Part shown: one piece after another, positions 11,684-30,893 of the stretch
Layout: every line of letters begins with the position of its first letter
Position numbering within the stretch: position 1 is the first letter of the stretch
NCBI GenBank assembly: GCA_022768745.1
Contig: JALELK010000040.1
Coordinates: 1-64,000, forward strand
From: Lachnospiraceae bacterium
GTDB lineage: Bacteria; Bacillota; Clostridia; Lachnospirales; Lachnospiraceae
Reading direction: 5' to 3'
Length of the DNA: 64,000 nt
The notes under the pieces: model-generated
Databases searched by the model: none
What the model saw: only the letters and a program-made list of their open reading frames with translations
What the model was told of the DNA's origin: nothing
Translations under genes and position numbers: made by a program

Positions 11684-12099
11684 ATATCAGTGGTATTCAG
11701 GAAGGTTTTGTTTTGGACCATATCAATGCAGGTATGAGTATGAAAATTTATCATGACCTTCACTTAGACGAGTTGGATTGCACTGTGGCAATCATTATGA
11801 ATGTAAAAAGTAGCAAGATGGGCAAGAAGGACATCTTAAAAGTGGAATGTCCTATTGATGCCTTGGACCTTGATATTTTAGGTTACATTGACCACAACAT
11901 TACTGTCAATGTGATTAAGGGAGACAAAATTGTGGAAAAGAAATCCCTTACCTTGCCAAGGGAGATTCACAATGTGATTAAGTGTAAAAACCCTCGTTGC
12001 ATCACTTCCATTGAGCAGGAGTTAGAGCAGATTTTTGTTCTCACCGATGAGGAGAACGAAGTCTATCGTTGCAAGTATTGTGAGGAGAAGAGCCAATAG
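11677..12099 (+). CDS. pyrI: Aspartate carbamoyltransferase regulatory chain
   Basis: This 140-residue chain binds nucleotide effectors through its N-terminal domain and contacts PyrB through a C-terminal zinc domain. The four zinc ligands are visible as Cys103 and Cys108 (CX4C) and Cys132 and Cys135 (CX2C). The start overlaps pyrB and has its own GGAGGTGGG site. The stop codon TAG at 12097-12099 lies inside the first bases of the giant palindrome, so the last codon and stop are shared with the repeat; the protein is still normal in length. Confidence 0.96.
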
Positions 12100-12761
12100 G
12101 GACGGATACCAATGGCACCATGGTCTGGCACCAATGGACCCAAGGTCTGTCCCTAATGGAACAAACATCACTATTTTATAAGCAGGTTTCGGCTGGACCC
12201 TTTTGTCCGGTCCCGGGGAGCCTGCTTTTTCTTATTTGGAGAAAATTTACGGTATCTCTTAATACAGATTTTGTTTGAGATAAACTGTCTCTTTCACGGC
12301 TTCGACTTTTCGCTAAGGATGTGTACGTCGGTGGCAGATATTTAAACACCCGCTTCATAAGAGATTCTAAGAGCTTGATACTTTACATATATGAAATTTA
12401 CGGTACCGGCATAAACGCACCATCCGGGTGCGGTTATGCCTCTCGGGTACATCCTTGTACCCTCGTACCTGATAAAACACCAAGCTCTAAGAATCTCTAA
12501 CTTGCTCTGCAATCATATCTGCCACAGACGAACATCATCCAAGCGATTGTCGAACCTTGAAAAGACAGTTTTAATATGGAAAACAAAATCTGTATTAAGA
12601 GATACGTAAAGATTTCAACATAATAGAAAGCAGGCTCCCCGGGACCGGACAAAAGGGTCCAGCCGAAACCTGCTGACGAAACCATAAAGGTGTTCCAATA
12701 GGGACAGACCTTGGGTCCATTGGTGCCAGACCATGGTGCCATTGGTATCCGTCCCTATTGG
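12093..12761. repeat. Giant near-palindromic element 1 (669 nt)
   Basis: The outer arms 12093-12163 and 12691-12761 are inverted copies matching at 70 of 71 positions. Further inward, 12181-12228 matches the reverse complement of 12627-12674 at all 48 positions, 12252-12276 matches 12581-12605 at 25 of 25, 12331-12341 matches 12515-12525 at 11 of 11, and 12360-12377 matches 12481-12498 at 17 of 18. The tip is branched: a stem GGTAC 12402-12406 with GTACC 12465-12469 encloses hairpins 12408-12440 and 12445-12462. There is no credible gene inside. The element fills the whole pyrI-murE gap. It may be a large structured RNA, a palindromic mobile repeat or a pair of inverted REPs; the sequence alone does not decide. 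Confidence 0.9.
12181..12230 (+). terminator. Possible pyrBI terminator within element 1
   Basis: AGCAGG at 12181-12186 can pair with CCTGCT at 12221-12226, with an inner GGAC/GTCC stem, followed by TTTTT. It would end transcripts leaving pyrI, but the same arm can also pair with its distant inverted copy at 12627-12674. Confidence 0.45.
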
Positions 12762-12786
12762 CTCAGGACTTCAGGTATGTTATACT
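12758..12786 (+). promoter_or_regulatory. Probable promoter of the murE-thiN operon
   Basis: TTGGCT at 12758-12763 and TATACT at 12781-12786 have a 17-nt spacer and lie 27 nt before the murE start. The first four bases of the -35 box are the last four bases of palindrome element 1, so the repeat end contributes to this promoter. Confidence 0.65.
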
Positions 12787-26785: not shown

Positions 26786-26810
26786 ACCATAATTGGAGAA
26801 TACTTAAGGA

Positions 26811-26855
26811 AAGTGTATGCTGTGGAAGATATCAATTTGGCATACACTTTTTTTA
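26811..26855 (+). terminator. Rho-independent terminator of the DUF975 gene
   Basis: AAGTGTATGC at 26811-26820 pairs with GCATACACTT at 26840-26849 over 10 bp, followed by a run of T residues. It ends 4 nt before palindrome element 2. Confidence 0.85.
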
Positions 26856-26858
26856 TAG

Positions 26859-27374
26859 TAGGCGTTTTTGAAACTCTTAGGGGGAGAGCTGCCGGTCCGG
26901 TCCAGGATTTCCGGCGGCAGGATTTTAGACAGAATTGCTAAATTTGTGAAAGGGCGCATTCCCTTAACGTTTGTGTCCGGGCATCGTTTCGACTGCAAAC
27001 TTACGCTGTACCTCTGTCACAGACACCCTCAGACTTTCTAGTCTGTCTAAGTGGGGTGCTTCACAAATTTTATTGTGCCCGCTCTTGGTTATGTCGCCCA
27101 TCGAAAGTTTCATCTATGCACTATGGTATATGGGCGCAAACACAAACCGCGGGCACGGTATTGTTTATCACCCCACGTAAGGCAGACACGAAACCCTTCG
27201 AAAGGTGTTCTGTGCCCAGAGGTACAGTGTAAGTTCCTGTCGAAACTTGCCCGGACATAAATCATAAGAAAAGGGAATGCGCCTTTTCTTACAAATTTGC
27301 GATTCTGACTAGTGAGTGCCGCCGGAAATCCTGGACCGGACCGGCAACACCCCTGGGAGTTTCAAAAACGCCTA
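26859..27374. repeat. Giant near-palindromic element 2 (516 nt)
   Basis: The outer 18 nt (26859-26876) match the reverse complement of 27357-27374 exactly, and 26891-26919 match 27317-27345 at 29 of 29. Inner perfect pairs include 26953-26965 with 27271-27283 (13), 26974-26983 with 27248-27257 (10), 26986-26993 with 27239-27246 (8) and 27006-27016 with 27217-27227 (11). The tip is a multi-way junction: hairpin 27030-27045, a long arm closed by 27051-27058/27169-27176 with inner stems 27075-27082/27149-27156 and 27096-27101/27130-27135, and a small hairpin near 27193-27206. No credible gene lies inside. The element fills the gap between the terminator and addB and resembles element 1 in plan but not in overall sequence. 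Confidence 0.88.
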
Positions 27375-27401
27375 TTTTTGTTTATGTATAAGGAGAAAAC
27401 T

Positions 27402-30400
27402 ATGTCTTTGCAGTTTATTGTGGGCTCAGCCGGAAGTGGAAAATCCACATACCTTTATCAAAACGTGATAGAGGAAGCCATAAAAAATCCCAAGAAAAAT
27501 TATCTGGTGGTAGTTCCGGAGCAGTTTACTATGCATACCCAGCAGCAGTTGGTGCAGATGCATCCGGCACACAGTATTATGAATATCGATATTCTAAGCT
27601 TTGAGCGTATGGCTTATAGAGTGTTTGATGAGTTGGGAACGGATACATTGGAAGTACTGGAAGAAACCGGAAAGCATCTTCTGCTCAGAAAGATTTCCCA
27701 GGAGAAAAAGGATTCTTTAGAGGTTTTGTCCAAGAACGTGAAAAAGCCGGGATATATTACACAGATAAAATCCTTGATTTCGGAATTTATGCAGTATGAC
27801 ATTTCTCCGGAGACGGTGGAGGAGATGGTGGAGCATCCTGCTATGAGCAAGGCTTTTAAAAAGAAAACAGGGGATATTCTGATTTTGTACCGGGAGTATA
27901 AAAACCGTCTGGAGGGCAGTTATATCACCGGAGAAGAAGTACTTCAAAAGCTGATGGATGTGGCAGAACAGTCCGAAATTTTAAGGGGAGCCTGCGTGGT
28001 ATTTGACGGATTTACCGGATTTACTCCTATTCAAAACCAGTTTTTGCAAATTCTCCTTACCTTAGCGGAAAAAGTGGTGGTTACGGTGACTTGTGATCCG
28101 AGTGAACCTCTGTTTGAAAAGCCTAGGGAAGAAGAACTTTTTGCAATGAGCAAGGAGATGGTTTTTCGCCTTTCCAAAATGGCTCAGTCTGTGGGCGTTG
28201 AACTGGAGGAAACGGTGTATATTGCTTCTGAGGGAAGAGGTCGTTTTTGTCAGGGGGGATATCTGTCTCATCTGGAGAAAAATATTTTTCGACCGGGGGC
28301 GAATGCCTATGAGCCGGAGGATAAAGTACAGGATGAAATTGAGATGGTCAGCCTTGCAAATCCCAGACAGGAGCTGTCCTATGTGGCCTGTGATATAGAA
28401 AATCAGGTGAGGGACAAAGGTCTGCGCTATAGGGATTTTGCGGTGGTATGTGCAGATATGGAATCCTATGCCCATCTGGTGGATGGGATTTTTCAAAAAT
28501 TACACATTCCCTATTTTCTGGATTTGAAATCCCAGGTGTTATTTCAGCCCTTTGTGGAGAGCATCAAGGGTCTTTTTATGGTTGTGGAGGAAAACTATTC
28601 CTACCAGGGAGTCCTGCGGCTTTTAAGAACGGGAATGACAGATTTGTCTGTAGAAGAAATTGATTTGTTGGAAAATTATATCTTAGCGGCAAACATTCGC
28701 GGAAAGAGCGCCTATAGTAATCCTTTTCTATTTATGCCAATGGGTTATACCGGGGATGATATGGTGCGTATAAATGAAATCAGAGAAAAATTTATGGCAC
28801 CTATTCGTTCTTTTAGCGATGCTTTTCCAAGCAAGAGAGGGACAGCGAGAGATATTTCCGTGGCTCTTTATCAGTGGATTTGTCACTATGATATGGAGGC
28901 AAAGCTACAGCGCAAAAAAGAAGAATATGAGGCGAGTCATCAGGAGGCAAAGGCAAAAGAGTATGACCAGATTTATGGTGTGGTCATGGGACTTTTGGAC
29001 AAGTTGGTAAGCATCTTAGGACAAGAAGAGATGACGCTGGATGAATACCGGGAACTATTGTCCACCGGATTTGAATCTCTGGGTATTGGAGTGATTCCAC
29101 CGGAAAATGATGTGGTGATGATAGGAGATATGGAAAGATCCAGACTTTCCGATGTAAAGGTTTTATATTTGGTGGGAGTCAGAGATGGTGCTATTCCTCA
29201 AAATGCCTCCGGGGGAGGAATTCTGTCACAGATGGAGAGACAGCAGTTGAAGGATGCAGATTTTGAATTGGCACCTTCGGATCGGGAAAAAGCTTTTATG
29301 CAGAGGTTTTATCTGTACTTGGTTATGACCAAACCCTCTGATAAATTAGTGGTTACCTACGGCAGAATGGACGGAAGCGGTAAGGCCACCAGGCGTTCCT
29401 ACCTTCTTGGTGTATTGGAACATCTTTTTCCAACTTTAAAGGTGAAGGTCTTGGAACATCTTCCTTTGCAGTGGCAGATGATGACACCGGAGATGGGAGA
29501 GGATTTTCTGGTAAACGGATTGCGGGAATATGCAGAAAGTGGAGTGAAATCAGGAGAGCTGGAAGAATTCTTATGGTGGGAGAAAAAGCACCGGAGTGAG
29601 AATTTGAACCGTTGGTTAAAAGCGGCTTATTTTGAACATAATAAAGAACTTTTATCTCCGGACTCCATATCCTCAGTGTTTGCCGAACATATGACAGAGA
29701 GTGTAAGCCGGTTGGAGCAGTATGCCAAATGTGCCTACGCATATTTTCTCCGCTATGGTTTGGAACTTTTGCCCAGACAGGAGCACAGCTTTGAACAGAT
29801 GGATATGGGAAATCTGTATCACACGGCACTGGAGTATTACTCTGTGGAGCTGCAAAAGAGGAAGGATGTAAACTGGTATACCATTTCAGAGGAGCAGATG
29901 GGAGCTTTGCTCAAAGAGGCTATCCTCCACAGTTATCAGACCATTACAAAGACCCAGGTGTTTTCCCAGGCAAGAGATGCCTATGTTTTGCACCGAATGG
30001 AAATCACCCTGCAACAGACCATCTGGGCACTGACAGAACAGGTGAGAAGGGGAAGCTTTGTTCCCACGGATTTTGAGGTAGATTTCACGGAGGTTGGAGA
30101 TTTGAAAAGTATGAACATCCAGTTAGATGAGATGCATACTATGAAACTCCGGGGGAAAATCGACCGGATTGATTTGTGTAAGGATGATAACAAGGTATAT
30201 GTAAAAATTGTGGATTATAAATCCGGACAGAAAGATTTAGATTTCAATCAGCTTTACAATGGTTTGCAGGTGCAATTGGTACTCTACCTCAACGCCACCA
30301 TGGAGGGACTGAAGAAGAAGTATCCGGACCGGGAGATTGAACCGGGGGCAATGTTTTATTATCACATTCACAGACCTCTGGTGGGAATGGATACTGTGGA

Positions 30401-30893
30401 AAAGTCCTCCAGAGAGGATGCAATTTTAAAGTCACTTAAGATGAAGGGAGTGTTAAACCGGGATCCGCAAATCGTTGAGGCTATGGACCACGGACTCAGC
30501 GGAAAGTCCAATGTGATTCCAGTGGGAGTAAAAAAAGACGGCAGTCTGGATGCCACATCCAGTGTAGTTTCAAAAGAGGATTTTTCTCTTATGGAACAGT
30601 ATGTGGATATGTTACTTGAGAAAACCGGACATGCCATTTTAAGGGGAGAAATAGACTGCAACCCCTATAAAATGGGTGCAGAAAACGGATGTGAGTATTG
30701 CGATTATCAGGGCATCTGTGGCTTTGATGTAAAGATTCCGGGATATGAATACAGAGCCTGCAAAGACGGAATGGAGAGAGAAGAGGCTCTTTCACAAATG
30801 GAGCAGGAGTTAGCAATTTATCACGGAAAAAACAGGGAGAAAGGAGGAAAAATCAATGCCGAACTGGACCAGGGAACAGAGACAGGTCATTGA
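27402..30893 (+). CDS. addB: ATP-dependent helicase/nuclease subunit B
   Basis: AddB works with AddA as the Gram-positive counterpart of RecBCD in double-strand-break repair. The start is the ATG at 27402 with AAGGAG 6 nt upstream; the frame is open further upstream inside element 2, but that part has no homology. The 1163-residue product has Walker A (Gly-Ser-Ala-Gly-Ser-Gly-Lys-Ser) at residues 7-14 and a C-terminal nuclease domain with Asp-Tyr-Lys. Its iron-sulfur cysteines are a single Cys in the Tyr-Ala-Lys-Cys segment near residue 777 and the CX2CX5C group close to the C-terminus. addA begins inside its last 38 nt. Confidence 0.95.
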   Translation: MSLQFIVGSAGSGKSTYLYQNVIEEAIKNPKKNYLVVVPEQFTMHTQQQLVQMHPAHSIMNIDILSFERMAYRVFDELGTDTLEVLEETGKHLLLRKISQEKKDSLEVLSKNVKKPGYITQIKSLISEFMQYDISPETVEEMVEHPAMSKAFKKKTGDILILYREYKNRLEGSYITGEEVLQKLMDVAEQSEILRGACVVFDGFTGFTPIQNQFLQILLTLAEKVVVTVTCDPSEPLFEKPREEELFAMSKEMVFRLSKMAQSVGVELEETVYIASEGRGRFCQGGYLSHLEKNIFRPGANAYEPEDKVQDEIEMVSLANPRQELSYVACDIENQVRDKGLRYRDFAVVCADMESYAHLVDGIFQKLHIPYFLDLKSQVLFQPFVESIKGLFMVVEENYSYQGVLRLLRTGMTDLSVEEIDLLENYILAANIRGKSAYSNPFLFMPMGYTGDDMVRINEIREKFMAPIRSFSDAFPSKRGTARDISVALYQWICHYDMEAKLQRKKEEYEASHQEAKAKEYDQIYGVVMGLLDKLVSILGQEEMTLDEYRELLSTGFESLGIGVIPPENDVVMIGDMERSRLSDVKVLYLVGVRDGAIPQNASGGGILSQMERQQLKDADFELAPSDREKAFMQRFYLYLVMTKPSDKLVVTYGRMDGSGKATRRSYLLGVLEHLFPTLKVKVLEHLPLQWQMMTPEMGEDFLVNGLREYAESGVKSGELEEFLWWEKKHRSENLNRWLKAAYFEHNKELLSPDSISSVFAEHMTESVSRLEQYAKCAYAYFLRYGLELLPRQEHSFEQMDMGNLYHTALEYYSVELQKRKDVNWYTISEEQMGALLKEAILHSYQTITKTQVFSQARDAYVLHRMEITLQQTIWALTEQVRRGSFVPTDFEVDFTEVGDLKSMNIQLDEMHTMKLRGKIDRIDLCKDDNKVYVKIVDYKSGQKDLDFNQLYNGLQVQLVLYLNATMEGLKKKYPDREIEPGAMFYYHIHRPLVGMDTVEKSSREDAILKSLKMKGVLNRDPQIVEAMDHGLSGKSNVIPVGVKKDGSLDATSSVVSKEDFSLMEQYVDMLLEKTGHAILRGEIDCNPYKMGAENGCEYCDYQGICGFDVKIPGYEYRACKDGMEREEALSQMEQELAIYHGKNREKGGKINAELDQGTETGH

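Follow-up and report, generated by a model that had tools for sequence, protein, structure and literature searches.

The window analysed here, a 64,000-nt stretch of a Lachnospiraceae draft genome, carries just 5' of addB a 516-nt giant palindromic hairpin (element B, 26859-27374), which raises the question of what such a structure is, an RNA selected for its fold or a mobile piece of DNA. A preliminary description had left both readings standing, after recognising that B repeats the plan of another element in the window, at 12093-12761. We think it rather probable that B is a copy of a dispersed, non-autonomous, MITE-like giant palindromic DNA element, which belongs to the same superfamily as that other element (element A, and with it TwoAYGGAY), and whose arms are re-symmetrised by copying.

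B contains no gene. Its outer inverted-repeat arms (26859-26883 and 27350-27374) match perfectly over their first 18 nt and at 92% over 25 nt, the left one holding an end motif, TTTTTGAAACT, which reads TTTGCGAAACT in other copies. Further in are the GC-rich arms (26883-26919 and 27317-27353), within which a perfect stretch of 29-30 nt (26890-26919 with 27317-27346) is specific to this copy, and these enclose an imperfect rod, the conserved bulged core of about 395 nt (26920-27316), whose 171-nt tip (27030-27200, minus strand) served to build a covariance model, R1. Folded as RNA, B reaches -306 to -321 kcal/mol compared with about -150 in shuffled sequences (z about -22 on either strand, with none of 100 shuffles equally stable). 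The arms, the rod and the plan common to A and B are as the preliminary description had them. The multi-way-junction tip that it gave to B did not hold, the best predicted fold being an essentially unbranched rod; of the two elements, A alone is branched at its tip (TwoAYGGAY). As for the GGTCCGG-like core that it saw in both elements, the motif sits in copy-specific arms and is not retained in other copies, and this resemblance is best taken as a coincidence.

On the plus strand, B is placed between the terminator hairpin of an upstream DUF975 gene (26805-26855) and the ribosome-binding site AAGGAG (27390-27395) of addB (27402-30893; AddAB subunit B, TIGR02773), whose ATG at 27402 lies 28 nt beyond the end of the element. 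A -10-like TATAGT (26854-26859, plus strand) that abuts B is a reading by eye, as are the -10-like boxes adjoining some other copies, and one copy in Roseburia faecis has a strong promoter (TTGACA-16-TATACT). The promoter scan showed no enrichment, and the idea that these elements insert at transcription start sites was dropped because promoter scores over ten copies equal those of shuffles (7.7 vs 7.6).

Eight copies of B, at unrelated loci, were found in this genome. A DNA search of the genome returned nine places beyond the window's own, which amount to seven other elements once aligned; there are split elements across contig ends (L018+L022 and L019+L021) and one truncated copy (L020, G000:C80), which has a T-box leader and its terminator on one side and trpD on the other. 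Because the genome is a draft (116 contigs, 88% completeness), these and all other copy numbers, which come from searches, are lower bounds. The cores of different copies are 89-94% identical (mean 91% over five full copies) and the outer arms of about 57 nt have diverged (left-arm identity between copies averages 65%), while within each copy the two arms remain 87-100% self-complementary. Seven of the eight copies end 25-31 nt from a start codon, as chosen by a simple script (for one of the seven the distance is 11 nt by automatic boundary and about 26 by eye), and the eighth sits between convergent stop codons. The downstream genes (addB, arsR-type, ferredoxin-like, spoIIAA, pth and trpD) share no function. 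A lone B-end motif, GGCAGTTTCGCAAACGTC, precedes the ribosome-binding site of a gene elsewhere in the genome (L085, G000:C106) and is possibly a scar.

The addB site itself was compared in four congeners. The gap is short and has no B in three of them (G002, G003 and G004), and in the fourth (G001) it is filled by a different hairpin of about 200 nt. Outside the genus, an exact 24-nt word of B led to R. faecis M72, which has four diverged B elements. All four adjoin start codons, two of them at 29 and 32 nt, the automatic boundary being unreliable for the other two. One R. faecis element occupies the spoVG-pth gap, as L019/L021 does in this genome. Comparison between strains rests on unverified faecal scaffolds, in which three further observations were made: (i) MT839852 (L038) has about 100 nearly perfect arm pairs at the R. 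faecis pth locus, which we did not use as evidence of arm length since comparison with M72 shows the right arm folding back on the left flank, and this fold-back may be an amplification artefact, (ii) in MT836710 (L186) the element at this pth site has no core, through natural deletion or artefact, and (iii) L039 (MT837534) and L163/L168 of M72 are the same element with half of it deleted in one and with different downstream genes, as if by a recombination break at the element or by an assembly joining two copies.

How does B relate to its neighbour in the window? Element A was found 15 times in this genome, and its copies repeat the plan of B, with a conserved core and arms that differ from copy to copy; unlike B, most of them abut stop codons. 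With eight copies of B and 15 of A, the family on one plan that the preliminary description envisaged does exist. The A element of the window spans 12090-12764 including its arms and is bounded by two inverted copies of a REP-like hairpin, which take up the last 74 nt at either end (12090-12163 and 12691-12764). Its tip (12350-12512, minus strand) matches the Rfam covariance model TwoAYGGAY (RF01731) at 103 bits, above the gathering score, as a full-length member. There are 12 such matches in this genome, plus at least three A elements in which the tip is lost or shortened. An Rfam search of B returned nothing relevant, with no match to RF01731 even at E 10. The two are nevertheless joined by elements of G003 (L122/L125), which match the B tip model R1 (E 1.9e-10 and 1.6e-8) and also the rods of A (E 3e-10, with a reversed-sequence control no better than 0.012). 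Because these intermediates carry an A rod together with a B-type tip, A and B are, judging by such matches, distantly homologous and form one superfamily. The preliminary description had called them two unrelated sequences, which is wrong, and its remark that they differ overall is right at face value and misses their distant homology.

The distribution of the superfamily is sporadic. Among 397 genomes of the family, R1 has matches in three, which are this genome, G003 (two matches) and G089, where a deeper search lists 20 short relatives; only 6-7 candidates were scored per genome in such large-set model searches, so that absence from them carries little weight. A blastn search for B gave no match in the four congeners and 200 family genomes. 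RF01731 is present in 64 of the 397 genomes, often in several copies, where it tops shorter hairpins of roughly 240-350 nt (for the loci that could be placed), and it is missing from the four congeners searched. The core of B was not found in plasmids, nor exact B words in viral contigs. Matches to B in a phage collection were set aside, as they are unverified faecal scaffolds matching R. faecis chromosomal loci. No literature on such elements in these bacteria was found.

These observations fit a MITE-like element well. B is dispersed over eight unrelated loci, has inverted ends and no coding gene, has arms that evolve in concert against a conserved core, and has relatives in R. faecis and other members of the family. 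The mobile hairpin family that the preliminary description suggested is supported by the dispersed copies, the empty addB sites of congeners and the sporadic distribution. A candidate mobilising enzyme would act in trans and recognise the bulged core, probably in the form of a folded single-stranded DNA hairpin. As for the arms, they would matter only through their pairing, and either template switching, which is reported to make and maintain perfect stems (PMC8794818), or hairpin correction would keep them symmetrical, the DNA of one arm serving as template for the other. Such copying would let arm sequence drift fast and yet stay complementary. Copies would mostly settle 25-32 nt 5' of start codons, where insertion may be tolerated because the RNA of B, lying in the 5' untranslated region, would fold away and leave the ribosome-binding site free. 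Against this reading, (i) no transposase or autonomous partner for B was seen among the loci read, (ii) direct repeats in the flanks (e.g. TATTA, AATTTAT), whose excess over mismatched flank pairings (a sum of 34 compared with 27 +/- 1.8) would favour mobility, are short and AT-rich, (iii) function or vertical inheritance could account for the 5'-UTR bias and for the spoVG-pth site shared by two genera, (iv) mismatches in B lean to one strand (7 vs 21), the copies being non-independent, and (v) since the bulges of the core are conserved, arm copying would have to spare the core or be selected against there. A broader proposal is a good deal more tentative, possible rather than probable, namely that giant palindromes including TwoAYGGAY form a class of bacterial selfish elements, which would be moved as folded single-stranded DNA, with one arm rebuilt from the other at each move or replication (whereby the two arms of a copy would evolve together), the bulged core as recognition site and insertion aimed just upstream of ribosome-binding sites.

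The rival that survives best, unlikely as we consider it, is that B is a large structured RNA, either a cis-regulatory leader or a trans-acting RNA, selected for RNA folding. The very stable fold, the conserved core with its internal loops, the compensatory changes in 6 of 53 pairs of the tip, the position in 5' UTRs at a near-constant distance from start codons, and the filing of the related TwoAYGGAY as RNA by Rfam all speak for it. Under selection for pairing in RNA, one expects many G-U pairs, and more of them than of A-C on the strand that folds. A count of isolated mismatches within helices gave, for A (44 elements, 5766 pairs), 45 GU, 39 AC and 70 transversions, and for B (12 elements, 2058 pairs, core orientation) 7, 21 and 14, respectively, a lean to A-C (i.e. 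G-U on the opposite strand) that comes from few, non-independent positions. Wobbles make up less than 1.5% of helix pairs, with no G-U excess, and neither A nor B shows the helix evolution through one-strand G-U pairs that a cis-regulatory RNA would. Nor does B have a fixed orientation to genes, which lie on the left of the core in six cases and on the right in one here, and on the left in one and the right in three in R. faecis (i.e. seven one way and four the other). The lack of a common function downstream also counts against an RNA, as does an Rfam search in which B had no meaningful match even up to E 10. Because of the mismatch pattern and of the two orientations of B, pairing in A and B looks to be kept at the DNA level rather than the RNA level, as far as sequence comparison can tell. 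The claim that these are large structured RNAs is hence unsupported for both elements (there is no RNA-strand bias in A).

The same count in an RNA-like comparison family (G, 696 pairs) gave 13 GU, 3 AC and 16 transversions. This third family, a 90-nt tip with paired arms, occurs in about 16-18 copies in each of the congeners G001 and G003 (L100-L119; e.g. G001:C113:17821-18033), mostly on the sense strand in the 5' UTRs of varied genes, with common orthologous sites at a rlmCD-like gene, ksgA and an MFS gene. Changes on both sides affect 34 of its 51 pairs, G-U exceeds A-C (61 to 21), and none of 14 loci scanned matches Rfam, which together make it a candidate new structured RNA. An end motif, GCGATTGCGAAACT, was considered as common to B and this family, but only about five of 20 G copies have it, and it is left as a lead.

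It is decidedly less likely that B is an element of the REPIN/BIME type moved by the REP-associated tyrosine transposase (RAYT) of the genome. A REP-like hairpin of 67 nt (AGGGACGGATACC...GGTCTGTCCCT) occurs at about 41 places; about nine of the 15 A elements have it, in inverted copies, on their flanks. The single Y1_Tnp/RAYT-like gene (G000:C7:18840-19172; NF047646, 74 bits, just below the cut-off of 80) stands between copies of this hairpin (G000:C7:18346-19477). However, none of the roughly 41 REP-like places in this genome is at a copy of B, about six of the 15 A copies have no such hairpin, and in the congeners G001 and G003 a RAYT-like gene occurs although TwoAYGGAY is missing. In this genome, the link of the RAYT-like gene is to the REP-like hairpins beside some copies of A, not to B.

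Very unlikely is a vertically inherited 5'-UTR element, which would protect mRNA 5' ends or tune translation and would have been lost in most relatives. The spoVG-pth gap occupied both here and in R. faecis, the 3' boundary mostly 25-32 nt 5' of start codons and the other hairpin family in the addB leader of G001 would fit it, but three congeners lack B at addB and a fourth, G001, has another hairpin in its place, the distribution of B is sporadic, promoters are not enriched at the outer boundary and one copy has convergent stop codons on either side. Chance inverted repeats, a possibility weighed in the preliminary description, are already refuted by the z of about -22 and by the seven further copies of B.

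The MITE-like reading can finally be set against known systems. Like REP/BIME/REPIN sequences and their RAYT, A and B are extragenic palindromes, and A often has inverted REP-like hairpins on its flanks, to which a RAYT-like gene is linked, but both are about ten times larger and B has no REP-like hairpin. With MITEs, B shares a short, gene-free body with inverted ends, many dispersed copies and possible short target duplications; it differs in that almost all of it is a single hairpin, whose bulged core is conserved and whose arms are specific to each copy, and in having no known autonomous partner. As for TwoAYGGAY (RF01731, clan CL00106), the tip of A is a full-length member, and B is a distant relative of the TwoAYGGAY-bearing element because the G003 elements join an A rod to a B-type tip, although B itself has no RF01731 match. 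Rfam models only the 168-nt tip, which it classes as cis-regulatory RNA; in this genome that tip caps a palindrome of 550-670 nt without RNA-type wobbles. This orphan Rfam family would therefore gain a home, as the apparent tip of a giant palindromic repeat, with B as a second family, new to Rfam, that belongs with it. The concerted evolution of the arms is in turn a caution that covariation alone is no proof of a functional RNA. Lastly, quasipalindrome correction by template switching (PMC8794818, PMC7202029) would account for arms whose sequence varies from copy to copy and which stay complementary within each; it is a general mutational process rather than a family of elements, and if it does act on A and B, as we infer, the concerted evolution of arms in each copy would be a clean natural case of template switching in the upkeep of perfect stems.
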